This document shows positions 6,586-58,004 of a DNA stretch of 58,877 nt, one piece after another. The stretch lies in NCBI GenBank assembly GCA_020072965.1, contig JAIQFY010000051.1:1-58877 (forward strand). Direction: 5' to 3'. The notes beneath the pieces were generated by a model. It searched no databases and was not told where the DNA came from. It saw only the letters and a program-made list of their open reading frames with translations. Positions within the stretch are counted from its first letter, which is position 1. Each line of letters opens with the position of its first letter. The translations under genes were made by a program, and so were the position numbers. The stretch is from Terriglobia bacterium (lineage in GTDB: Bacteria > Acidobacteriota > Terriglobia > JAIQFV01).

Positions 6586-7503
6586 TTAGGTGCCGGGTCG
6601 CCACAGGTACTGCAGAGGCGCCTCTTTGGAAAGATGCTGAAGTGGCGCAGGGATCAGCGAAGAGGCGTCCCCGAACAAAACATCAAACAGCGACTGTTTG
6701 GGTTTCGTCGCCCGGATAATCTTCGGCTCGCCTTTGATCTTGGCCAGCTGGGCGGCGGCATCGATGGCATCCTGCAAATCGCCCACCTCATCAATCAGCT
6801 TATTCTCCTTCGCCTCACGCCCCGTGAAGACGCGGCCATCCGCAAGTCCCTTGACGGCCGCCGGGCTCATCTTCCTGCCCTGGGCCACCGCGTCGACGAA
6901 TTGCCCATACGTGTCGTCAATGAGATGCTGAAGATAGGCCCGTTCTGCCGGGGTCAGGTCACGGGCGGGATCCCCGGTATCTTTAAACTCTCCGCTCTTG
7001 ACCACCACATCTTTCATTTTGATCCATTTCAAAAGGTCCTCGTAGCTATACCACTGCGCAATGACGCCAATCGATCCGGTCAGGGCGCCCGCGTTCGCCA
7101 CCACTTTGTCCGTGGCGCAGGCTGCATAGTAGGCCCCCGAGGCCCCAACCGATGCGATCGAAGCCACCACGATTTTCTTTTTCTTGGCGCGGACGCGATT
7201 GATCGCCTGATATATCTCTTGCGACGCCGCGGCGCCGCCCCCGGGGCTGTTGATGCGCAGAACGATGGCCCTGACGCCGGAGTCCTTCCCGTACCGCTCC
7301 AATTGATCGACCACGGGCTGGGAGTCGTAAATCGGGCCGTTGAGTTCGACGATCGCTACCTTGTTTTCAGCAAAGGAAAAATCGGAGCTCTCGTCGGCCT
7401 TCATGGAATACAGCAGGAGGACAAACAGCAGCCCCCCGAACACCAGCAGCGCTCCACAGCCGATGAGAATCCATAGAACAACATTGGAATGTTGATCACT
7501 CAT
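6586..7503 (-). CDS. sppA: Signal peptide peptidase SppA, short form
   Basis: This 305-residue membrane-anchored serine protease of family S49 degrades signal peptides left after secretion. Residues 9-32 form the single membrane anchor. The catalytic Ser122 sits in SVGASGAYYAA and the general-base Lys174 in VVKSGEFKD. RINSPGG at 84-90 is also typical. The length fits the single-repeat type of Gram-positive and many other bacteria, about half the E. coli enzyme. It starts 3 bp after the rpsA stop, so the two are surely cotranscribed. Confidence 0.95.
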   Translation of the reverse strand: MSDQHSNVVLWILIGCGALLVFGGLLFVLLLYSMKADESSDFSFAENKVAIVELNGPIYDSQPVVDQLERYGKDSGVRAIVLRINSPGGGAAASQEIYQAINRVRAKKKKIVVASIASVGASGAYYAACATDKVVANAGALTGSIGVIAQWYSYEDLLKWIKMKDVVVKSGEFKDTGDPARDLTPAERAYLQHLIDDTYGQFVDAVAQGRKMSPAAVKGLADGRVFTGREAKENKLIDEVGDLQDAIDAAAQLAKIKGEPKIIRATKPKQSLFDVLFGDASSLIPAPLQHLSKEAPLQYLWRPGT

Positions 7504-7506
7504 GAT

Positions 7507-9303
7507 CTAGTCACCACTTGAGTCCTTTTCGGATTTCTTGTCCGTCTGAAGCTGTCCCACCAATTCCTGCATGCGGGTCCTGGAAGCCTCGTCGGTCTGT
7601 GCCTGATAAGTTTCCAAGGCCTTGCGGTCTATATCGTCAATGGCCCCACGCTGACTCAATCCGATCTTGCGCTCTTCAAGGCTCAGTTTGATGATCTTGA
7701 ACTCATACTCCTTGCCGGCCGCCACAGAGGTTCCCGATTTTTCCTGGATTTTTTCCTTCTCCTCAAACTCTGAAAAGTGACAAAGCCCTTCTAGACCCCC
7801 ACCCAGATCCACAAAGGCCCCGAAGGAGGAAACCCGCGTGATCTTTCCTTTGACCAGATCGCCGACTTGATGTTTTTCCACGAACTCCTGGAAGGGTTCG
7901 TTCTGCAACTGCTTCAGGCCCAGGGATAACCGGCGGTTCTCGGCATCGATATTCAGAATGACGGCTTGCACCAGATCGCCCTTTTTCAACACTTCGGACG
8001 GATGCTTGATCCGGCGTGTCCAGGAGAGATCAGACACATGCACCAGCCCATCGATCCCTTCTTCAATTTCAATGAAGGCGCCGAAGTCGGTCAGATTGCG
8101 CACCCGCCCTTCCACCTGTGTGCCGACGGCATAGCGGGAGGCCAGCGTCATCCAGGGGTCCGGTTCGGTTTGCTTCAAGCCCAACGACAGTTTGCGCTCC
8201 GAAATGTTGAGATCAAGCACCGCGACTTCCACCTCATCTCCCACGTTCAAGATCTTGGAGGGGTGTTTGACCCGCTTGGACCAACTCATTTCGGAGACAT
8301 GGATCAATCCTTCCACTCCCTCGGCCACCTCCACGAATGCCCCGTAATCGGTGAGGTTTACCACCTTCCCCTTGACGCGCGCCCCGACCGGGTGATTCTG
8401 GGCAAACTCCACCCAGGGATCCGGGAACAGCTGCTTCAGGCCGAGTGAAACCCGCGCCTTTTCGCGATCGAACTTCAGGACCTTGACAGTGATTTCCTGG
8501 CCGACGTGGAAGGTCTCCTGAGGAGACGGGGGACGCCCCCAGGAAATATCTGAGATATGGAGCAATCCGTCCACCCCCCCCAGATCCACAAACACTCCGT
8601 AGTCAGTGATGTTCTTGATGATGCCATTGACCACCGCCCCGTCCTGGAGATTTTCCAGGACGGCGGTGCGGCGCTTCAGGTTCTCTTCCTCCAGCACCAC
8701 CTTGCGCGACAACACAATATTGCCGCGCTTCTTGTTCATCTTGATGACGCGGCAGGAAATTTCCTGTCCTCGAAAGGAGTCCAGATTCTTGACCGGCTTG
8801 AGGTCGATCTGGGAGCCGGGTAAAAAGGCCTTGACGCCAATATCGACTGACAATCCACCCTTCACCCGTTCAAGAACGAAGCCCTTCATAATAGACTGCT
8901 CGGAATAGGCCTTTTCGATGTCGTCCCACACCCGCATGCGTTTGGCTCGCTCGTGCGACAGCCGAATGGCCCCTTCCATATCTTCCGCATGTTCCAGAAG
9001 AACGTCGATCACATCACCCGGTTTAACAGTCACCTGACCGAGGGGATCAATGAATTCTCCCAGGGGGATCACGCCTTCCGACTTGAACCCGACGTCAACT
9101 ATGACATCTGTACGCGTGACCTTGAGCACGGTGCCCTTCAGGACATCGCCTTCCTCCGCCACCTTCCATCCACTGTAAGATTCAAGTAACTGTTCGTAAC
9201 TTGCGCCCGACCCGTTATTCTCTGAGCCCATGTTTTTCTCGCCTATAGAGTTCTGCTTTGGCTGCGCCCCTCCTTTCGGCTTGTCGTCCTGCCCGCTGTC
9301 CAT
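7507..9303 (-). CDS. rpsA: 30S ribosomal protein S1
   Basis: This protein of 598 residues has six S1 RNA-binding repeats, at about 42-112, 127-196, 213-282, 300-369, 387-456 and 474-545. The last four carry the strong GxFV-GLxHxS pattern (YGAFVEV...GLIHVSEMSW). S1 brings mRNA to the 30S subunit. The start at 9303 is chosen because a GGGAGGAAC site lies just upstream; the open frame extends to 9501 but that part has no ribosome site and unlikely composition. Coupling to ispH upstream and sppA downstream is known from several phyla. Confidence 0.95.
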   Translation of the reverse strand: MDSGQDDKPKGGAQPKQNSIGEKNMGSENNGSGASYEQLLESYSGWKVAEEGDVLKGTVLKVTRTDVIVDVGFKSEGVIPLGEFIDPLGQVTVKPGDVIDVLLEHAEDMEGAIRLSHERAKRMRVWDDIEKAYSEQSIMKGFVLERVKGGLSVDIGVKAFLPGSQIDLKPVKNLDSFRGQEISCRVIKMNKKRGNIVLSRKVVLEEENLKRRTAVLENLQDGAVVNGIIKNITDYGVFVDLGGVDGLLHISDISWGRPPSPQETFHVGQEITVKVLKFDREKARVSLGLKQLFPDPWVEFAQNHPVGARVKGKVVNLTDYGAFVEVAEGVEGLIHVSEMSWSKRVKHPSKILNVGDEVEVAVLDLNISERKLSLGLKQTEPDPWMTLASRYAVGTQVEGRVRNLTDFGAFIEIEEGIDGLVHVSDLSWTRRIKHPSEVLKKGDLVQAVILNIDAENRRLSLGLKQLQNEPFQEFVEKHQVGDLVKGKITRVSSFGAFVDLGGGLEGLCHFSEFEEKEKIQEKSGTSVAAGKEYEFKIIKLSLEERKIGLSQRGAIDDIDRKALETYQAQTDEASRTRMQELVGQLQTDKKSEKDSSGD

Positions 9304-9584
9304 TGCCTCAGTTCCTCCCACCGAAACCCCTCGACGGGTTCCTATTCTCCAACTCCCTTCGCGGATGGTTTTGTCAAAAACCCGCCGCGATGAGGGTTGA
9401 AAATCTTCGAGTGTCCCTGCTTGGGCAGGAAGACTTTCTGATAAGGCGGACGCCATCGAGGTCCAAAACCCCCAACGAAGGGAGTAAACATCCTCCGGCA
9501 ACTCGACCGGACGCGTCCCCTTTAACTTCGCTGCCCAATCTTGCGGGGCCCCTCGTCGGCGAAGGCAATGCGGGTACCCGAAAA
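9304..9584 (-). promoter_or_regulatory. Long leader or intergenic region before rpsA
   Basis: The 281 bp between the ispH stop and the rpsA start hold no convincing gene. S1 genes in other bacteria are autoregulated through their leader RNA, so regulatory structure here is plausible. No specific structure was identified by eye. Confidence 0.3.
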
Positions 9585-10448
9585 CTAGGTGACTGCGGAG
9601 TGTGTGGGGAGATTTTTCAAACGTTCCACCACGTCGGCGATAATCCAGTCCGGTGTCGAGGCACCAGTGGTGATGCCAACACTCTGAACATCCTGAAAAT
9701 CGATATCTTCAATTTCCCTTACTTCTTCAATATGGTAGGTGCGCGGCTGAATTGACTTGCAAATTTCAACCAGTTTGTTGGTATTCGCGCTGTTCCGGCC
9801 TCCCACAATAATCATAATATCCGCCTGGCGCGCCAGACCGGCGGCAGAGCGCTGCCGGACGAAAGTATCATCACAAATGGTGTTGAAGATCCGAATCTCG
9901 TTGGCTTTGTCCGAGAGCTTGGAGAGAATGGTATTAAACTTCCCCACATTGAACGTGGTCTGCGCGATCACCCCCAACTTCGGATGAAACTTCAGCTCGT
10001 CGGCCTCTTCCACCGTCTTGATGACAGTGTAGTTGTCGTTCACAAAGCCAATCACACCCTTGATCTCGGGATGGTTCTGATCGCCCACGATCAGGACATG
10101 GTAGCCTTCCTTGCCGAGTTGCGAAGCGTAACTTTGAGACTTGGTCACATAGGGACAAGTCGCATCGATGACCTTATCCACATGCTGTCTCAACTCTTCC
10201 ATGCGCTGGGGGGCAAGCCCGTGGGTTCGCACAATGACCGTCCCGCTCTCAATGTCATCCACTTCGTCGGCAACGGCGACCCCTTTGGTTTTCAGGCGGT
10301 CAATGACCTGAGGATTGTGAATCAGGGGACCAAAAGTATACACCTTGGCCCCTTCGCCGCAACCTTGCGCCACCACGCGCTCTGTCATCTTCATGGCGCG
10401 CTTGACGCCAAAACAGAATCCGGCCTCTTCAGCAATCAAAATTTTCAC
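9585..10448 (-). CDS. ispH: 4-hydroxy-3-methylbut-2-enyl diphosphate reductase
   Basis: This is the last enzyme of the MEP isoprenoid pathway. It reduces HMBPP to isopentenyl and dimethylallyl diphosphate with a [4Fe-4S] cluster. The 287 residues include the three cluster cysteines, Cys12 (GFCFGVKRA), Cys98 (DATCPYV) and Cys192 (NTICDDT). The substrate-binding histidines His44, His76 and His126 and the NHPEIKG motif with its catalytic Glu are also present. Length is standard. It is the first gene of the minus-strand block. Confidence 0.97.
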   Translation of the reverse strand: MKILIAEEAGFCFGVKRAMKMTERVVAQGCGEGAKVYTFGPLIHNPQVIDRLKTKGVAVADEVDDIESGTVIVRTHGLAPQRMEELRQHVDKVIDATCPYVTKSQSYASQLGKEGYHVLIVGDQNHPEIKGVIGFVNDNYTVIKTVEEADELKFHPKLGVIAQTTFNVGKFNTILSKLSDKANEIRIFNTICDDTFVRQRSAAGLARQADIMIIVGGRNSANTNKLVEICKSIQPRTYHIEEVREIEDIDFQDVQSVGITTGASTPDWIIADVVERLKNLPTHSAVT

Positions 10449-11331
10449 TGGGATGGAGAGTTCTCCTTCACAACATACAGCAGCAAACTATACTTAAGGG
10501 AGTGAGCGGAAGTCAACATCTATTTGATTTGATGAGAGTTCAATAAGATTCCCGTCACCCTTTCACTGCCTTCTCAATCCGATGGGAAGGCCGCTCCACC
10601 CGTCGAAATCCAGATCTTTTGGACTGAACAAGAACCTGGCCCAAATAGCCCGGGAGTAGGGTGAGAGGGTTCCTATCGTTGGTTCAAAGCCTCAAGAAAA
10701 TCAATACGAGCCCGGGATCTTAAAAGCTCCCTGTTCCTTTCTACTTATTCTCAATTGCTGGTTCCAAGGAGGCCGGAAAACGGCGGGAGCTGACTGAAGC
10801 CGAACCACAAAGTTGAAAACACGGGGATATTCCCCAAAGGAATGCAAGAAAACCAGATCAACTCTTCTCGGGCTGCTACCGCAATTGAATCGCCGGGTCG
10901 GCCCCGATTGATCGGGGCGGTCTACAACGCAGAATCATGGGGTTAAGTTGTAGGCCCGGGGCCTTCACCGGGCGCTCTCGAGTTTGAGCGACAGCCCGTT
11001 CTTTTGCGCCCCTGAACCTGGATCCAAACCATGCCTCTGCGGGTTGTAGAAAGGCTCCCCTGGGGAATCTGAGGAGGGCGACAAGACAACGCCACGGGCT
11101 GATCACGACGGGGTCGAACCCTTCCCAGACCGGCTGGCAAAATTAGAAATCTTGAACTTGAGACTGGGGTCCGGTTGGCAATGGGACTCAAGAACCGCCC
11201 CAAGGAGGGAACCAGATATGGCGGCACCAAGGCCGAGGTCCCTTGGCCGCCCCTTCATTCACCGGACAAAGAGAGTGCAGGATGGGCAGTTCTTCCCTGG
11301 TCGAACCTTCCCCTTCAAAGATTCGATGCCA
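10449..11331. other. Intergenic, no gene; one palindrome
   Basis: No supported coding frame was seen. CCCCGAT at 10902-10908 and ATCGGGG at 10911-10917 form a perfect short palindrome. The ispH promoter should lie near 10450-10550 on the minus strand. Confidence 0.4.
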
Positions 11332-11549
11332 AAGGTCCCTGATCTATAGTATGAAATTTCAAATTAAGAAGGCCAGACGTCTTGCTCGTAAATCATCGAC
11401 CCATTGAACAGGGTCAGTCACCTGTCCCTTCCAGTCCGGGCCATGCTATGGCGGAATAGTCTCCTTCTTCTTCAAATCCATCACAATTGATTTGCATTGA
11501 AGAACCTAACGCCCGGCTGACACCTTTAAGATCAGAATTCAGGCTTAAC
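11332..11549. repeat. Dispersed repeat, copy B (about 218 bp)
   Basis: This is the second clear copy of the element at 4907-5123, in the same orientation. By eye more than three quarters of positions match over the full length. It lies 150 bp beyond the 3' end of the sigma-factor gene. It contains no open frame of note. Confidence 0.8.
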
Positions 11550-47699: not shown

Positions 47700-48515
47700 A
47701 TGCCCAAGCTCAAAGACAAGGTCATCGAGCAGAACCAGGGGAAGATTGAAGCCGCTGCCTTGCGCATATTCACTCGCCAGGGCTACCACGGGACGTCGAT
47801 GCGGGACATCGCAGAGGCCGCCCGGATCTCCATCGGCAACCTTTACAACTACTACGGGGGCAAAGAGGAGATCTTCGTGTCCCTGGTGCGCCGCCACGAA
47901 GCCCGGATGGACGCGCTCCGCGGAAAGGTGCTGGGCCCGATGCAGAACGTCTTCGACCCCTCCGAGTTGCAGCGTCTGGCGAGAGGTATCCGGGAAATCG
48001 TTTATGAGAACCCGGACTACTGGCACCTCATGTACATCGACGTGGTCGAGTTCGGAAGCCAGCACTTCGCGTACACTTTCCGGTCGCTGGCGCAGAAGAT
48101 GAAGCAGCGCCTGGGTCCACGGCTGCGCGAGGCCACGCGCCGGGGCCCTTGGAATGACATCGACCCTGCCCTGGCCTTCACAGCGATCTATCTGCAGCTC
48201 ATCACTTATTTTCTGGTGGAAAAACTCTTCGGAGGAAAGCAACACCTCGGTATGCCCGACGACCGCGCTATCGCTCAGTTGATCCGGATGCAGACCCAGG
48301 GGATCTGGCGCGATGGGGCGGAAGGTCGCGGCAGCCATGACAGAAGGAGGAAACATGCGAATGCAAACACTCGCAACACTGCTGGCGGCCGCCGGCATTC
48401 TCTGCTTCATGACGGCGATGACTCAAGCTCAGACGGCCACCACCGGGCAAATCGTGGGCGTGGTGACGGATTCCAGCGGGGCCGTCGTGGTCGGCGCAAG
48501 AGTCGCCCTGACTAG
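47700..48515 (+). CDS. TetR-family transcriptional regulator
   Basis: The N-terminal helix-turn-helix (about 15-60) has the family text ALRIFTRQGYHGTSMRDIAE followed by ISIGNLYNYYGGKEEIF. The ligand-binding helices run to about residue 210 and contain an acyl-type regulator look (YIDVVEFGSQHFAYTF). The frame stays open to 271 codons; the last 55-60 residues are an Arg/Gly/Ser/Asp-rich read-through of the receptor gene in another frame and are unlikely to be a domain. No ribosome site precedes the ATG, so it may be poorly or leaderlessly translated. It probably controls the genes downstream. Confidence 0.88.
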   Translation: MPKLKDKVIEQNQGKIEAAALRIFTRQGYHGTSMRDIAEAARISIGNLYNYYGGKEEIFVSLVRRHEARMDALRGKVLGPMQNVFDPSELQRLARGIREIVYENPDYWHLMYIDVVEFGSQHFAYTFRSLAQKMKQRLGPRLREATRRGPWNDIDPALAFTAIYLQLITYFLVEKLFGGKQHLGMPDDRAIAQLIRMQTQGIWRDGAEGRGSHDRRRKHANANTRNTAGGRRHSLLHDGDDSSSDGHHRANRGRGDGFQRGRRGRRKSRPD

Positions 48516-51500
48516 CGACACCGGCGTGCGGCGCGAAACCGAAACCGGCGGCGACGGCGGTTACAAGTTTGCTCTACTCGGCCCAGGCTCCTATCGGCTC
48601 GAAGTGACCCTCAGCGGATTCGCACCGGTCAAATTGGAAGGCATCGCCGTCACGATAACCGGAACCTCAGTCGTCGACGTTACCCTCCAAGTGGCCGGTT
48701 TGCCGACCACGGTTTCGGTCACGGCCGAATCGCCGCTCGTGCAGACCGAAAGCGCCACCCGCGGCGAGGTCATCCAGAGCGGGACGCTGCGCCAGCTCCC
48801 GCTCTCCACGCGCAACTTCCAGCAGTTGCTGACCCTGACTGCTGGGACGCAGGGCTCCATCTCTAATTCTTCGGAACTGGGCCGTGGCGACGCGGTATTC
48901 AACGTGAACGGCCAGCGCTCAGTCTCCAACGCGGTGGTCATCAACGGGGTGGACGCCAACTCCATCGGCACCGGAAGCACGCCCAACCTGGCGGTGCCCG
49001 CCACCGACACCCTGCAGGAGTTCATCGTCCAAACCAGCCTGTATGACGCTTCCCAGGGCCGCAACGCCGGCGGCATCGTGGCCGCTGTCACGCGTTCCGG
49101 CAGCGACGCCTTCCACGGCAACCTCTACGAGTTCCTGCGCAACGATGTACTCAACGCCAACAACTTCTTTCTCAACAGTGCCACGGTGGGTAAGCCGGTT
49201 TACCGCCGGAACCAGTTCGGTGGCACGCTCGGGGGCCGGATCGTCAAGGACCGGGCGTGGTTCTTCATGTCCTACCAGGGAACGCGCGAAACCAATGGCA
49301 CGTCGCTGACCAACTCGCTGGCCACTGTGTTCGTTCCCGGCAATCTCAGCAACGATCGCAGTACCGCCGCCATGAACGCTTTGGCCGCGTCCTTCGGGGT
49401 GGCCGTTATCAATCCCAGCGCCCTGTTCCTGCTGCAGGCCAAGCTGCCCAACGGGCAGTTTGCGGTCCCCTCGGCGCCCTCGCCGGGGGCCTCCAATGCG
49501 CCGGTGTCGGTCCCGGTGCCGGGCATTTCTAAGTTCCGTGAGGACCAATTCAACAGCAATCTGGATTTTCAGCTGAACTCAAAAAATCGGCTGTCTCTCA
49601 AGTTCTTCTGGGCGAACAACCCCACCACCCAGGCCCTATTCAACTCGTTCGGGACAGGCAACGCGCTGCCCCTCCCGGGTTTCGGCGCAACGTTGGACTT
49701 CAAGCAACGACTGTTTTCGCTCAGCGACACCCACGCTTTCGGGGTGCATGTGCTGAACGAGGTCCATTTTGGCTACAGCAGCATCACTACCGGGTCCACG
49801 CCGCAAGAGCCGTTTACCTCGGCGCAGCTTGGCATCAGATCTCCCCTGAACAGCCTTTTTCCCGGCATGCCCACCATCTCGGTGAGCAACTTTTTCGATC
49901 TGGGGGCATCGCCCTTTTCCGATAACGACGCCCAGATCGCGACCTACAATCTGGGCGATACTTTGAACTGGACGCTCGGAAAGCACAGCCTGAAGCTGGG
50001 GGGCGAGTACAAGAGACACATTGTTGACGAGCGCTTTGATCTCTACACCCGCGGGAACATGTTCGCCCTCGGCTTCTCGGGGAACCCCTTCAAGGACTTC
50101 CTGGGTGGTTTCTTTGGCCTCAATGGCCTGTCGATCATGGGCTCGGGGGAGAACACCCGCCACCACCGGGCGCAGGACGCGGCCTTGTTCATCAACGACG
50201 ACTGGCGGTTGAGCGACCAACTCACCCTGGCCTTGGGCCTTCGCTGGGACTACTATGGCCCGTTCCACGAGACCCAGGGGCGCTTTGTAGCCATCGATCC
50301 GGCACTGATCACCACCAAGGCCGTCGGGGGCGGCGTCGCGGTGACCAGTGGTTTCGTGCAGGCCGACAACGCCAACTCCGTGCTGCCCGGTTTCACCCCG
50401 GTGACGGCCTCCCTAGTGCCCGCTGACACCAACAATTTCGGACCGCGAATCGGCTTCGCTTGGCAACCGCACCGCCACAACAGCCGGATGGTGGTGCGCG
50501 GGGGAATCGGGCTGTATTACGACCGTCCCAATGCACGCCTCCTGAACAACCAGATCCTGAACTTTCCCTTCTACACGTTGGCGCAAGTGGTCGGCGCACC
50601 CATCTCCAACCCCTTCGTGCAGGTCCCGTTGCCCAATGCCTACCCGCTGCAGTTCAACAATGCCACCATCTTCCCTTCAGGCGGAGCACCGGCTGTCCTG
50701 CCCGCCGCGGTGGCCGCCAGCGCTTGCGCCCCCGCCGGTTTCACCTGCGTATCGGCGAATGGCATCTATCCCAACCTGCACAATTTCCGAACCCCTTACG
50801 TGTTCCAGTACAGCCTCGGCACTCAGTACGAGTTCGCCCGCAATTGGCTGCTTGACCTGAGTTACGTGGGGGCGAGCGGTCGCAAACAGTTGCGGCTGCT
50901 CGACCTCAACCAGCCGGTGGCGGCCGCGGCCTTCTCCCCGGGACCGCTGAGTCCCGGCCTGTCGGCGCTGCCGGTCCAGGCCTTCGGCGTGCACGTGATC
51001 GAAAGCAGTGGGAACTCCAACTACAACTCGCTGCAGGCGACGGTGACCAAGCGTCTCTCTCAAGGCCTTCAGCTCATCGCGGCGTACACCTATTCGCACA
51101 CCCTTGACGACTATTCGGGGGACGCCTCCGGCACCAGCGACAACTCGGTAGTGCCGGGGGACGAAGTGAACCTGAACAACCATGCCTCTTCCGATTTCGA
51201 TCGCCGGCATCGCTTCTCTTTCAGCTACGTCTACGACCTGCCGAAGTTCTACCACGGTGGTTCCAAGGCCGCATCGCTGCTTGCCAACGGCTGGGAGCTC
51301 GCGGGGGTCTTGACCGTGCAGACGGGCACACCGTTCTCGGTCCTCACCAACGCGACCGCATTCGTCCAGGCACGCGCCGACTTCGCACCCGGGTGCACGC
51401 TCACCAATGCAGAGCTGAGCGGAAGTGTCGACAGCCGGCTAAACAAATACTTCAACACTTCCTGCTTCATTGCTGCGACCGGTTTGGGAAACTACGGCAA

Positions 51501-51738
51501 GACCGGGCGCAATATCCTGCGCGGGCCTGACCAGCGGAACCTCGATTTCTCTATCGTGAAGTTTTTCCCCATCCGAGAGGGGCAGAGGCTGGAGTTTCGC
51601 ACCGAATTCTTCAACATCTCCAACACCCCAAGCTTCGCCAACCCGGTCCCCATCCAGGCCTCGGGCAACTTTGGACAGATCGTTCGGACCAGCACCGGCC
51701 CGCGGGTGATCCAGTTCGCTCTGAAGTACGAGTTTTAG
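48355..51738 (+). CDS. TonB-dependent receptor, Oar-like
   Basis: This is a 1127-residue outer-membrane receptor. It has a signal peptide (1-28), then a carboxypeptidase-regulatory-like beta domain (about 30-110; IVGVVTDSSGAVVVGARVAL). A plug (about 115-235; RNFQQLLTLTAGTQG) and a large beta barrel ending in an aromatic residue (IQFALKYEF) follow. AGAAGGAGG precedes the ATG at 48355. Receptors of this Oar/CarboxypepD type abound in Acidobacteriota and import large or unusual substrates. It overlaps the open frame of the TetR gene by 161 bp, and the SDR gene starts 7 bp after it. Confidence 0.95.
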   Translation: MRMQTLATLLAAAGILCFMTAMTQAQTATTGQIVGVVTDSSGAVVVGARVALTSDTGVRRETETGGDGGYKFALLGPGSYRLEVTLSGFAPVKLEGIAVTITGTSVVDVTLQVAGLPTTVSVTAESPLVQTESATRGEVIQSGTLRQLPLSTRNFQQLLTLTAGTQGSISNSSELGRGDAVFNVNGQRSVSNAVVINGVDANSIGTGSTPNLAVPATDTLQEFIVQTSLYDASQGRNAGGIVAAVTRSGSDAFHGNLYEFLRNDVLNANNFFLNSATVGKPVYRRNQFGGTLGGRIVKDRAWFFMSYQGTRETNGTSLTNSLATVFVPGNLSNDRSTAAMNALAASFGVAVINPSALFLLQAKLPNGQFAVPSAPSPGASNAPVSVPVPGISKFREDQFNSNLDFQLNSKNRLSLKFFWANNPTTQALFNSFGTGNALPLPGFGATLDFKQRLFSLSDTHAFGVHVLNEVHFGYSSITTGSTPQEPFTSAQLGIRSPLNSLFPGMPTISVSNFFDLGASPFSDNDAQIATYNLGDTLNWTLGKHSLKLGGEYKRHIVDERFDLYTRGNMFALGFSGNPFKDFLGGFFGLNGLSIMGSGENTRHHRAQDAALFINDDWRLSDQLTLALGLRWDYYGPFHETQGRFVAIDPALITTKAVGGGVAVTSGFVQADNANSVLPGFTPVTASLVPADTNNFGPRIGFAWQPHRHNSRMVVRGGIGLYYDRPNARLLNNQILNFPFYTLAQVVGAPISNPFVQVPLPNAYPLQFNNATIFPSGGAPAVLPAAVAASACAPAGFTCVSANGIYPNLHNFRTPYVFQYSLGTQYEFARNWLLDLSYVGASGRKQLRLLDLNQPVAAAAFSPGPLSPGLSALPVQAFGVHVIESSGNSNYNSLQATVTKRLSQGLQLIAAYTYSHTLDDYSGDASGTSDNSVVPGDEVNLNNHASSDFDRRHRFSFSYVYDLPKFYHGGSKAASLLANGWELAGVLTVQTGTPFSVLTNATAFVQARADFAPGCTLTNAELSGSVDSRLNKYFNTSCFIAATGLGNYGKTGRNILRGPDQRNLDFSIVKFFPIREGQRLEFRTEFFNISNTPSFANPVPIQASGNFGQIVRTSTGPRVIQFALKYEF

Positions 51739-51745
51739 GGGGCCC

Positions 51746-52528
51746 ATGAAAGACACTGGTCTGCGCGGTAAGATCGTCGTCGTTACCGGAGCCGCGGCGG
51801 GGATCGGTCGCGCCACGGCCAGGCGGTTTGCAAGCGAAGGCTGCCGTGTGGCGGCGTGGGATGTCAACGATGCGGGGCAGGAAGAGTTGCTGCGCGAACT
51901 GTCCTCGGTCGGAGGAGAGTCACTCTTCCGCAAAACCAACGTGTGTGACTCCCGCGACGTCGAGGCGGCTGTCCAGGAAACCGTCGCGCGCTGGCATACC
52001 GTGGACGTCCTGATCAACAATGCCGGCATCATCCGCGATGCGCAGTTGGTCAAGTGGAAGGACGGGCAAGTCGCCGGCCTCATGAGCGACGAGGCCTTCG
52101 ACGCCGTCGTTTCTGTGAACCTGAAAGGCGTCTTCGTCTGCGCCCGGGCGGTAGTGCCTCACATGATCCGCCACGGTTCGGGCGTGATCCTGAATGCGTC
52201 TTCCGTCGTGGGGCTGTACGGCAACTTCGGGCAAACCAATTATGCCGCCACCAAGGCCGGCATAATTTCCTTTGCACGTACCTGGTCCCGCGAATTGGGC
52301 AAGTACAACATCCGGGTGAATGCCGTGGCGCCGGGGTTCATCGCCACGGAAATCTTGCGCACCATGCCGGACAAGGTCGTCCAGTCCATGGTGCAGCGCA
52401 CCCCTTTGGGACGAATGGGCAGTCCGGACGACATTGCCGAGGCGTACGTGTGGTTAGCATCGGATGCTGCCGCCTTCATCACGGGGACCGTGCTTTCGGT
52501 GGATGGCGGACTGGTGTTGGGAACTTGA
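51746..52528 (+). CDS. Short-chain dehydrogenase/reductase, FabG-like
   Basis: This 260-residue NAD(P)H-dependent oxidoreductase has TGAAAGIGRATA (cofactor), NNAG (about 92), catalytic Ser in NASSVVG, and Tyr and Lys in YAATKAG. The closest general type is 3-oxoacyl-ACP reductase or 3-hydroxyacyl-CoA dehydrogenase, so a beta-hydroxy/keto-acyl substrate fits the neighbours. It is separated by 7 bp from the receptor gene and 23 bp from the ketoacyl-synthase-like gene, clearly one operon. Confidence 0.93.
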   Translation: MKDTGLRGKIVVVTGAAAGIGRATARRFASEGCRVAAWDVNDAGQEELLRELSSVGGESLFRKTNVCDSRDVEAAVQETVARWHTVDVLINNAGIIRDAQLVKWKDGQVAGLMSDEAFDAVVSVNLKGVFVCARAVVPHMIRHGSGVILNASSVVGLYGNFGQTNYAATKAGIISFARTWSRELGKYNIRVNAVAPGFIATEILRTMPDKVVQSMVQRTPLGRMGSPDDIAEAYVWLASDAAAFITGTVLSVDGGLVLGT

Positions 52529-52551: not shown

Positions 52552-53541
52552 ATGCGCTACGCGAACATTATTTCCACCGGTCGATATGTGCCCGAAATCG
52601 AAATCACCAACGACATGTTGCGTGAGCGATTCCAGAACATCCCGGACTTTGTCGACAAGATGGAAGCATCCAGCGGCATTCGCACACGCCGGCACGCGCC
52701 GGAAGACTGGGCCACCAGCGACGTGGCTCTCCCCGCGGCGCGCCAAGCGATCGAGCGCGCCGGGCGGAAGCCCGAAGACGTGGACCTGATCATCCTCGGA
52801 ACCGACTCGCCGGATTACATTACGCCCGCGACGTCGGTGGTCCTGCAACACAAACTCGGCGCCAAAAATGCCGGCACATTCGACATCGGTTGCGCTTGCG
52901 CATCATTTCCCACAGGGCTATCGGCTGCCGCCGGGATCATTGCGGCTAATCCCGGCATCCGGACGGTGCTGGTGGTGGGAGTGTACCTGATGCACAAACT
53001 GGCCGCGGCAGACGATCCCATGATCTTTTTCTACGGCGATGGCGCGGGCGCGGCGGTCTTGGAGCCCGCCTCCGCGCCGGGTTTCATCACGTCCGCATTT
53101 CGCGCGGATGGCTCCTATCACAAATACTGGGGGATCTATTCGGGAGGTACTTTCGAACCGGCCACCGAAGAATCTGTGAAGGAGGGGCGCACGCGCTGCA
53201 ACATCAAGCAACGCTACCCGCCGGAGATCAATGAGGATACTTGGCCTCTCTTGGTGCTGCGTCTGGCGAAGGAGGGTGGGTTTCAGATGCGCGACGTGGA
53301 CCTCTTCATCTTCACGCAGGTCCGCAAGCCAACCATCGCAACCGTGATGAATACATTGGGCGTCCCCATGGAGCGTGCCCATACCATCATGGAAGAATAC
53401 GGTTACACCGGCTCCGCCTGCATCGGGATGGCGCTGGATGACGCCATCGAGAAGCGGAAGGTGCATCCCGGCGACCTCCTCGTGCTGGTGGGGTCGGGAG
53501 TCGGTTACAACCAGGCCGGCGTCGCTTTCCGCATGATCTGA
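52552..53541 (+). CDS. Ketoacyl-synthase-III-like protein with altered triad
   Basis: This 329-residue thiolase-fold protein resembles FabH. The nucleophile is present (Cys116 in DIGCACASFP), as is YGDGAGAAVL (161-170). The usual His of the HQAN motif is replaced (LFIFTQVRKPTI; Thr255 at the His position by alignment). The Asn of the GNTSAAS motif is Tyr285 (YGYTGSAC). Standard decarboxylating condensation should be impaired. An acyl transfer, thioester hydrolysis or non-decarboxylating condensation role is more likely. The family with FTQ and YGYTGSAC is recalled from other bacteria but its reaction is unknown to me. Confidence 0.85.
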   Translation: MRYANIISTGRYVPEIEITNDMLRERFQNIPDFVDKMEASSGIRTRRHAPEDWATSDVALPAARQAIERAGRKPEDVDLIILGTDSPDYITPATSVVLQHKLGAKNAGTFDIGCACASFPTGLSAAAGIIAANPGIRTVLVVGVYLMHKLAAADDPMIFFYGDGAGAAVLEPASAPGFITSAFRADGSYHKYWGIYSGGTFEPATEESVKEGRTRCNIKQRYPPEINEDTWPLLVLRLAKEGGFQMRDVDLFIFTQVRKPTIATVMNTLGVPMERAHTIMEEYGYTGSACIGMALDDAIEKRKVHPGDLLVLVGSGVGYNQAGVAFRMI

Positions 53542-53575: not shown

Positions 53576-54538
53576 TTGCCAATATCAAAAGTCATTGCGT
53601 GGGTAGCAGTCATCGTCATTTTGGCGGTGGTGACGGCGGCCGTGCTGGTGGTGTGGAGGCGTCCCCTGATGGTTTTCGCGTGGATGGAGCGGCGGAGCCT
53701 TACCCGTCAGGGCTTGAGGAAATCGGTCGTCAACGCTCCCTCCGGCAGGATTGCGTTTTGGGAGGGCGGGAGCGGGCCCACCCTGGTCTTTCTCCATGGC
53801 GCGGGCGATCAGGCGGGAACCTGGTCGCGGGTGCTGTCACAACTAATCACTGGGCATCGCGTGCTCCTCCCCGATCTGGTTGGGCACGGCGACAGCGAAC
53901 CCGCCCAAGGGACACTCACCATTGGCATGGAGCTGGCCGGCTTGGAAGCCCTCCTGACGGCGCGCTCGCCGCAGCAGCAGGTCGTACTCATTGGAAATTC
54001 TCTGGGCGCGTGGGTGGCCATGCTTTATGCCTTTCAGCACCCGGAGCGCGTGGCGCTCGTGGTGGCAGTGAATGGCGGACCATTGCGAGGGACGCGGCCC
54101 GACGTCTTGCTCAACCCGGCTAACCGCGAAGAAGCACGACGCCTGATGCAACTGGTGCGTGACCCGGGTAGCCCGCCCATCCCGGGGTTCGTGCTGGATG
54201 ACGTGGTGCGCGAGGCGCAGCAGGGCCCCATCGGCCGGCTTTCGCAGAGCGCCGCCGACATGCAGCAATACCTCCTGGATGACCGCTTGAAGGAGTTCAA
54301 GGTGCCGGTCGATATCCTTTGGGGAGAGGCCGACCAACTCCTGGGCTCCGCCTACGCCAAGAGGCTGGAGGAAGGGTTGCCAGCGGCGCGTCTGACCCTG
54401 CTTTCCCGTTGCGGCCATGTTCCCCAGCGGGAGTGTCCTGTCACCTTCGCTACCAAGCTTGCGCAGTTGCTGAAGGATCCGCCCTCGGCACCCCTCGGCG
54501 CGCCAGCCACCCTGGTGCCTGCAGCCCCGTTGCCTTGA
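53576..54538 (+). CDS. Membrane-anchored alpha/beta hydrolase
   Basis: This 320-residue protein has an N-terminal membrane anchor (7-28, IAWVAVIVILAVVTAAVLVV). An alpha/beta hydrolase domain follows with oxyanion FLHGAGDQAG, nucleophile Ser142 (GNSLGAW), acid in WGEADQL and His in CGHVPQ. The TTG start has GGAAGG before it. It may cleave an ester, lactone or thioester at the inner-membrane face. It ends in a Pro/Ala-rich tail and lies 34 bp after the ketoacyl-synthase-like gene. Confidence 0.88.
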   Translation: MPISKVIAWVAVIVILAVVTAAVLVVWRRPLMVFAWMERRSLTRQGLRKSVVNAPSGRIAFWEGGSGPTLVFLHGAGDQAGTWSRVLSQLITGHRVLLPDLVGHGDSEPAQGTLTIGMELAGLEALLTARSPQQQVVLIGNSLGAWVAMLYAFQHPERVALVVAVNGGPLRGTRPDVLLNPANREEARRLMQLVRDPGSPPIPGFVLDDVVREAQQGPIGRLSQSAADMQQYLLDDRLKEFKVPVDILWGEADQLLGSAYAKRLEEGLPAARLTLLSRCGHVPQRECPVTFATKLAQLLKDPPSAPLGAPATLVPAAPLP

Positions 54539-56146: not shown

Positions 56147-56284
56147 ATGAAACCTATCTACATTGCCGCCTACCATCAATCCAACTTTGGAAAGCTTATG
56201 GCCATGTCGGTGCCGGAGATCATCCGAAACGCCATCCCCGGGGTGGGCCGCGAGAGGAGGGACGATGCCCGAGGTGACTGCTGA
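56147..56284 (+). pseudogene. N-terminal stub of an SCP2-type thiolase
   Basis: A 45-codon frame starts MKPIYIAAYHQSNFGKL, the usual opening of lipid-transfer-type thiolases, with VPEIIRNAI next. It then runs out of homology at about residue 31 and stops. The ribosome site AAGGAG is intact. The remaining 350 or so residues of a thiolase are absent; the next gene starts inside the stub. A deletion in the organism or an assembly join could explain it. Confidence 0.6.
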
Positions 56285-57116
56285 CCGCACCGGCTACGTG
56301 CGGGTCCAAGACCGCGATGTCTACTGGGAGTATTTCGGCCGTGGAGACCGGGAAGCGATCTGCCTGCTGAACGGCGTGGCTATGAGCACCCGCTCTTGGT
56401 ATGCCTTCGTCCCCCAATTACAGCCGGAATACGATTTGATCCTGTTCGACTACTGGGGCCAGGGAAACTCGTTCAGCGAGGATGCGCCCTACTCCATCCC
56501 CCGCTTCTGTGAAGCCCTCACGAAAATCGTGGACACCCTGACTATCCAGCGATTGCATCTCATGGGGATCTCTTACGGGGGGTTCGTCGCCCTGGACTAC
56601 GCGCGCCTCTACCAGGACCGGCTACACACGCTGACTATCTCCGGGATTCTCCTCACTCACGAAGAGCTATTCGAGATGTACGAGGAGCTTTCTTTGCTCT
56701 TCTACCGCAGCGGTCAGATGGAGCTGTACGCCTATTACCTGTACGAGAAGATCTTCGGCGAATCGTTTGTGCGGAAGATCGGCCCCCGGCTGCCGGAGAT
56801 GCGACAGAAGCTGATCGAGAGGTACAACGAACGGGCGCATTGTCTGGTCCAGCTCACCCTGGCCCAGGACCGCCTGTTCGCCGAACTTGATGCTAACCTA
56901 CCCGGATACCGGGCCATCCAGACCCCGACGCTGATCATGGCTGGCGCCGAAGATCGAACCATCCCCCCCTGGGTCCAGAAGAAGATCTGCACCATCCTGC
57001 CGAATTCACGCTTTGAGAAGATCGAGGATTCGGGACATGTCGTCTATCTGGAGAAGCCCGAGATTTTCTTCGGCCATCTGAAGAGATTCGCCCAAGCCAA
57101 ATTGCTCAGTTTCTAA
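56265..57116 (+). CDS. Alpha/beta hydrolase
   Basis: This 283-residue soluble hydrolase has nucleophile Ser103 (GISYGGF), acid in AGAEDRTIP and His in DSGHVVYLE. The oxyanion segment reads LLNGVAM in place of the usual LHG. The start at 56265 follows GAGGAGG; the longer frame from 56163 lies in the thiolase stub. It is the last gene of the cluster. The fold does not tell ester from thioester or C-C bond cleavage. Confidence 0.9.
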   Translation: MPEVTADRTGYVRVQDRDVYWEYFGRGDREAICLLNGVAMSTRSWYAFVPQLQPEYDLILFDYWGQGNSFSEDAPYSIPRFCEALTKIVDTLTIQRLHLMGISYGGFVALDYARLYQDRLHTLTISGILLTHEELFEMYEELSLLFYRSGQMELYAYYLYEKIFGESFVRKIGPRLPEMRQKLIERYNERAHCLVQLTLAQDRLFAELDANLPGYRAIQTPTLIMAGAEDRTIPPWVQKKICTILPNSRFEKIEDSGHVVYLEKPEIFFGHLKRFAQAKLLSF

Positions 57117-57594: not shown

Positions 57595-57671
57595 GCGCCT
57601 GTAGCTCAGTTGGATAGAGCGTTTCCCTCCGAAGGAAAAGGCCGCTGGTTCGAGCCCAGTCAGGCGCACCA
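57595..57671 (+). tRNA. tRNA-Arg (anticodon CCG)
   Basis: The acceptor stem GCGCCTG/CAGGCGC is perfect. The anticodon stem TTTCC/GGAAA has loop CTCCGAA, and the T arm is CTGGTTCGAGCCCAG. CCA is encoded at 57669-57671. The first 16 bases equal those of tRNA-Arg(TCT). Confidence 0.95.

Positions 57672-57928: not shown

Positions 57929-58004
<76 letters not shown>

Follow-up and report, generated by a model that had tools for sequence, protein, structure and literature searches.

The window analysed here, a stretch of 58,877 nucleotides, encodes an enzyme of the KAS III fold in which the catalytic histidine and asparagine of FabH are replaced by threonine (Thr255) and tyrosine (Tyr285). We use KAS* as a working name for this 329-residue protein, the product of the open reading frame at 52552–53541 (+), and for its family. 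Within the KAS III fold KAS* forms a new branch, distinct from FabH, PRK06840 proteins, HMG-CoA synthase, CerJ-type acyltransferases and the OleA/OleABCD system; comparison of its sequences identifies the Thr255/Tyr285 substitution as a family trait, not decay or sequencing error. Its chemistry of bond making or breaking is probably unlike that of FabH. The reading that we prefer, at somewhat less than even confidence, is a Cys-dependent, non-decarboxylative acyl-CoA enzyme: its C–C chemistry on CoA thioesters would be reversible and, in what looks like a catabolic operon, would proceed in the direction of cleavage (retro-Claisen or retro-aldol).

Fold, active site and family of KAS*

The reading frame is open throughout and its product carries the ACP_syn_III and ACP_syn_III_C domains (PF08541/PF08545), matching solved FabH structures over its full length (best match 4dfe, E 3e-39). 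An AlphaFold2 model, built from 39 family members, has a mean pLDDT of 89.9 with one weak stretch at residues ~196–200, and fits FabH 4dfe_A with a Foldseek TM-score of 0.88 and no large rearrangement; superposition of the same pair by VIA gives Z 45.3 and an rmsd of 1.8 Å over 319 residues. HMG-CoA synthase, OleA and CerJ are absent among the 50 VIA matches listed, which is not evidence against likeness to them. The thiolase/KAS III fold of FabH is predicted to be intact in KAS*, as a preliminary description of this DNA had supposed, and from so close a superposition the residues in the catalytic columns are expected to occupy equivalent places in the structure.

In the alignment with FabH structures, the segment wliPHQAN lies opposite lfiFTQVR, and YGNTSAAS opposite YGYTGSAC. 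This places Thr255 (codon 53314–53316, +) at the position of the catalytic histidine and Tyr285 (53404–53406, +) at that of the asparagine; the FabH nucleophile aligns with Cys116 (52897–52899, +). The preliminary description had drawn these three correspondences, together with the conserved TQ and YGYTGSAC text, from the window, and the correspondences hold across the 120 distinct relatives that we compared (41–100% identity; Acidobacteriota, Chloroflexota, Pseudomonadota and Myxococcota). Cys116, Gln256, Tyr285 and the Gly-Ser-Ala-Cys run at 287–290 are each present in 120/120 members, and position 255 is Thr in 119, with a single Ser. In FabH-type proteins of the same and related genomes the two catalytic columns hold His in 14 of 14 and Asn in 14 of 14. 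A pseudogene, a sequencing error or a chance mutation in a single genome is excluded, since the substitutions are fixed in 120 relatives.

Two further invariant residues were overlooked in the preliminary description, as was the catabolic operon discussed below. The first is Asp85 (52804–52806, +), found in 120/120 KAS* members where FabH has V, I, S, T or C; in archaeal-type HMG-CoA synthases this column holds the catalytic Glu, a comparison based on three alignable archaeal-type sequences, with two myxobacterial ones left out. The second is Cys290 (53419–53421, +), five residues past Tyr285 and likewise present in 120/120. Positions 285 and 290 covary, being Asn and Ser/Thr in FabH, His and Asp in the PRK06840 family, and Tyr and Cys in KAS*. 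The invariance of Asp85, Cys116, Thr255, Tyr285 and Cys290 suggests an active, constrained site. The possibility that another His and Asn stand in for the missing pair, which the preliminary description had raised against itself, finds no support in the sequences of the 120 members: the His and Asn residues kept in at least 95% of them are Asn20 (shared with FabH), Asn227, His277 and Asn320, all of them outside the catalytic columns, and we reject replacement by neighbouring residues at this level of evidence.

A strong KAS* homologue occurs in 58 of 396 genomes of the phylum that were searched, in two groups of 66–75% and 41–50% identity. When contigs were scanned with the family alignment, using two conserved peptides of which one is [WY]GYTGSAC, at least 572 relatives were confirmed; the 80 that were kept span the same four phyla. 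One cultured carrier is Geothrix fermentans DSM 14018, with its copy on scaffold NZ_AUAU01000008. In a maximum-likelihood tree KAS* forms one clade (SH-aLRT 97) with FabH outside, and the PRK06840 family is the clade nearest to it (support 86). The window protein scores below the NCBIfam cut-offs for FabH (TIGR00747, 177 vs 292 bits; NF006829, 192 vs 249 bits), for PRK06840 (NF005308, 154 vs 315 bits) and for HMG-CoA synthase (TIGR00748, 31 vs 353 bits). The same genome has a canonical FabH on another contig (C68), 33% identical to KAS* and with both HQAN and GNT. Automatic annotation names such proteins 'ketoacyl-ACP synthase III' (for example in CP069395), a label that is probably wrong for the KAS* family, to which several hundred loci match. 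The open-access literature searched, which is part of the whole, yielded no paper on this family or its gene cluster.

The KAS* operon and its relatives

In the window KAS* lies in a series of genes on the forward strand that begins with a TetR-family regulator (47700–48515; PF00440), whose frame overlaps the next one and whose true end may be earlier. It is followed by an outer-membrane β-barrel of TonB type with a CarboxypepD_reg domain (48313–51738; PF25183, PF13620), repeatedly found 5′ of KAS* in Acidobacteriota, and by a FabG-like SDR dehydrogenase (51746–52528; PF13561 and FabG-type models), orthologues of which adjoin KAS* in Acidobacteriota and Chloroflexota. In SDR enzymes an Asp that terminates the second strand is a sign of NAD use, and such an Asp here (AAWDVND) suggests that preference. 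Beyond KAS* come an α/β hydrolase with a Ser nucleophile (hydrolase 1, GNSLG; 53576–54538; PF12697), kept between KAS* and the ligase; an AMP-forming acyl-CoA ligase resembling PRK06839/PRK06187 (54550–56103; PF00501 and PF13193), with fatty-acyl- and feruloyl-CoA synthetases as its nearest solved structures; the remnant of an SCP2-type thiolase (56147–56284); and a second α/β hydrolase with a Ser nucleophile (hydrolase 2, GISYG; 56265–57116; PF00561), of which 52–60% identical copies lie beside KAS* elsewhere. About 30 codons of the thiolase are recognisable, MKPIYIAAYHQSNFGKLMAMSVPEIIRNAI matching the start of an intact thiolase in a paralogous cluster; the gene start is fused to the region 5′ of hydrolase 2 and the remainder is gone. 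Genes for tRNA-Arg(ccg) (57595–57671) and tRNA-Lys(ctt) (57929–58004) lie just 3′ of the operon.

The paralogous cluster is a second copy of the operon in the same genome (locus L005 on contig C70; L005 positions 6706–11462), comprising SDR, KAS* (75% identical), ligase and intact thiolase. Its KAS* gene is one base short near codon 30 (L005 position ~7630) relative to the sister genome G001, and is thus frameshifted or misassembled; translation may resume from a GTG at 7649. Should both copies be real, the window copy, with intact KAS* and truncated thiolase, and the C70 copy, with damaged KAS* and intact thiolase, may complement each other.

The order SDR, KAS*, hydrolase, ligase, thiolase, hydrolase recurs across Acidobacteriota. 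Among 58 acidobacterial loci, 42 include an orthologous ligase; with identity required to be 45% or more, an SDR is present in 41 and a thiolase in 16. Elsewhere the ligase and outer-membrane protein are replaced by CoA-transferase, Liv ABC transporter, porin, MaoC/crotonase and OB-fold genes: in Holophagaceae KAS* occurs with thiolase, SDR, porin and Liv-type ABC genes; in Chloroflexota with SDR, CoA-transferase, SCP2-type thiolase, an OB-fold (ChsH2-like) protein, hydrolase and Liv-type ABC genes; and at one Rhodocyclaceae locus with CoA-transferase, crotonase, ligase, tandem MaoC and PRK06840. This exchange of importers and CoA-activating enzymes around a constant KAS* points to a catabolic pathway. 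Proteobacterial KAS* loci also contain a protein of ~210–256 residues (L155, 4153–4830; L138, L142, L144 and L164), for which the L155 copy gives no Pfam match at E 1e-4.

A KAS III-like protein of the PRK06840 family, with Cys, His and Asp, shares eight loci in four phyla with KAS*, often as its immediate neighbour (L104, L125, L065, L140, L158, L160, L163 and L137). These co-locations were taken from the rows of the tree, tblastn counts for PRK06840 being unspecific because the query also matches KAS*. The frequent adjacency hints at a heterodimer or at consecutive steps. On a plasmid of the haloarchaeon Halobaculum magnesiiphilum (L167) the gene for a PRK06840 homologue comes immediately after Liv-type ABC transporter genes, and an acyl-CoA dehydrogenase is encoded two genes beyond it.

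What reaction does KAS* catalyse?

FabH needs both His and Asn for decarboxylation (PMC4807248), as the preliminary description had stated, and because both are gone from KAS* a decarboxylation of the FabH type is unlikely. The further proposal of that description, a distinct reaction and perhaps an acyl transfer, fares unevenly. A distinct reaction is well supported by the fixed substitutions, by a separate clade spanning four phyla and by the normal FabH on contig C68. Acyl transfer gains somewhat from the Cys, His and Asp of PRK06840 and loses from the lack of this His and Asp in KAS* itself, and the proposal took account of neither Asp85 nor the operon. With an invariant Asp85 at the column of the HMG-CoA synthase Glu and a catabolic operon, non-decarboxylative C–C chemistry is at least as likely.

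In the C–C cleavage that we prefer, a carboxylic acid (or an ester of it) would be imported, converted to a CoA thioester, oxidised by the SDR and then cleaved by KAS*. Cys116 would carry the acyl group, the hydroxyls of Thr255 and Tyr285 would take over from His and Asn in holding the enolate oxygen, to which they can donate hydrogen bonds, and Asp85 would move the proton, like the equivalent Glu of HMG-CoA synthase. An Asp side chain is one methylene shorter than that of Glu, which counts against so equating them. In the thiolase superfamily the position of the FabH Asn should correspond to the His of the thiolase GHP motif, and in the intact thiolase of the C70 cluster HDCF and GHP are 50 residues apart. 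The retro-aldolase Ltp2 has its catalytic Tyr344 50 residues past Tyr294 of its YDHF motif (PMC12329534), and this matching spacing gives a tyrosine at position 285 a precedent; in Ltp2 and Sal the Tyr does acid/base work in a thiolase-fold retro-aldolase (PMC12329534). In archaeal HMG-CoA synthase the formation of the C–C bond centres on this Glu and the Cys, both of which are missing from its inactive homologue PhlA (PMC6392133). The operon, which resembles a β-oxidation operon without acyl-CoA dehydrogenase, also speaks for cleavage. Against it stand the separate, intact thiolases of many KAS* loci, which could do the cleaving, the occurrence of KAS* outside any such operon in Myxococcota and several Proteobacteria, and the acyltransferase-like Cys-His-Asp arrangement of the sister family PRK06840. 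It is possible, though we hold this more tentatively still, that KAS* is a widespread KAS III family with its active site (Cys116, Asp85, Thr255, Tyr285, Cys290) rebuilt for catabolic C–C cleavage, in parallel with and independently of Ltp2/Sal, and sometimes paired with PRK06840.

Could Cys116 instead simply accept the acyl group of a CoA thioester and hand it on to water or to an alcohol, amine or thiol, as an acyltransferase or thioesterase in the manner of CerJ/ChlB3, with no carbanion step? We regard this, the main rival to cleavage, as rather unlikely, but it would fit an enzyme that has lost His and Asn yet keeps its Cys, and KAS III-fold acyltransferases with a Cys-His-Asp arrangement are known in ChlB3 and CerJ (PMC9573744). 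The sister family PRK06840 likewise has the Cys, with His at the Asn column in 9/9 and Asp five residues on in 9/9, and shares the eight loci described above; KAS* has its own invariant pair, Tyr285 and Cys290, at exactly these positions. In PqsC, moreover, acylation is independent of the His (PMC4807248). KAS*, however, has neither the His nor the Asp of ChlB3 and CerJ, the role of Asp85 would be left unexplained, and the operon includes no obvious gene for making an acceptor, in a context that looks degradative.

Cleavage also has its reverse, a biosynthetic non-decarboxylative condensation like that of OleA or HMG-CoA synthase, in which a β-keto- or β-hydroxyacyl-CoA would be formed and reduced by the SDR, the ligase and hydrolases finishing a small molecule. 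We judge this improbable. The gene types (KAS, hydrolase, AMP ligase and SDR) recall OleABCD at first sight, but the OleB hydrolase has an Asp nucleophile, whereas both hydrolases here, GNSLG and GISYG, have Ser; the SDR is a short one of FabG type; the ligase has the C-terminal domain of a normal CoA ligase; and importers are attached in several phyla. OleA has its Glu 26 residues before its Cys, compared with 31 for Asp85. The acid at position 85 does favour such a reaction in that the non-decarboxylative condensation by OleA likewise employs a Glu as base (PMC7064751). An OleABCD-like olefin or β-lactone pathway was itself rejected, on the Ser-nucleophile hydrolases, the FabG-type SDR and the missing His.

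It is less probable again that KAS* is a silent or scaffold subunit for a thiolase, like PhlA in PhlACB. The surroundings of KAS* do recall PhlACB and the archaeal thiolase/HMG-CoA synthase complex, in that an SCP2-type thiolase is often adjacent and the Chloroflexota loci add an OB-fold protein; PhlA, however, has lost the Cys and Glu, whereas Cys116 and Asp85 are each kept in 120/120 KAS* members, many loci have no thiolase, and that of the window is only a remnant. Least probable is an ordinary KAS III condensing acyl-CoA with malonyl-ACP and tolerating the substitutions, since, for all its FabH-like fold and remaining sequence, KAS* has neither of the residues that FabH decarboxylation requires (PMC4807248), scores below both FabH cut-offs, as given above, and forms a separate clade in a genome that has its own FabH.

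If KAS* does cleave C–C bonds, the KAS III scaffold would include a catabolic lineage that relies on a new set of catalytic residues, and a degradation pathway shared by soil and sediment bacteria could be traced by the peptide [WY]GYTGSAC.

Comparison with known thiolase-fold systems

KAS* has the thiolase fold (Z 45, rmsd 1.8 Å) and Cys nucleophile of FabH, at 25–33% sequence identity, and differs from it in the change of His to Thr and Asn to Tyr, in the added Asp85, in operon context and in falling below the family cut-offs. The nearest clade, PRK06840 (NCBIfam NF005308, '3-oxoacyl-ACP synthase'), is similarly non-canonical, shares the eight loci and has Glu or Gln at the Asp85 column; it differs in the columns of Tyr285 and Cys290, where it has His and Asp.

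Archaeal-type HMG-CoA synthase, over three alignable sequences, shares with KAS* the Cys nucleophile and an acid at the Asp85 column (Glu there, Asp in KAS*), and the Chloroflexota loci, with their SCP2-type thiolase and OB-fold protein, recall its context. It keeps His and Asn, however, where KAS* has Thr at the His column. CerJ and ChlB3 also combine the KAS III fold and Cys with a rebuilt triad, which in ChlB3 is Cys113-His296-Asp301, with His and Asp five residues apart (PMC9573744); KAS* has Tyr285 and Cys290 at the His and Asp positions. PqsC, of PqsBC, has the same fold and has lost the Asn (Val in PqsC; PMC4807248), but it retains His269 and needs PqsB, whereas in KAS* the His has gone as well.

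OleA has a functional His285, in contrast to Thr255 of KAS*, and its Glu is located elsewhere. OleABCD offers a comparable set of gene types, with OleA a non-decarboxylative KAS III-fold enzyme that uses a Glu base (PMC7064751), but its hydrolases, SDR and ligase are of other types. Finally, the steroid side-chain aldolases Ltp2 and Sal belong to the SCP2-thiolase and not the KAS III lineage, with a Tyr/Tyr or Tyr/Cys pair in another motif and a DUF35 partner; with KAS* they share the thiolase fold and an active site rebuilt around Tyr, which in their case serves the retro-aldol cleavage of CoA thioesters (PMC12329534).
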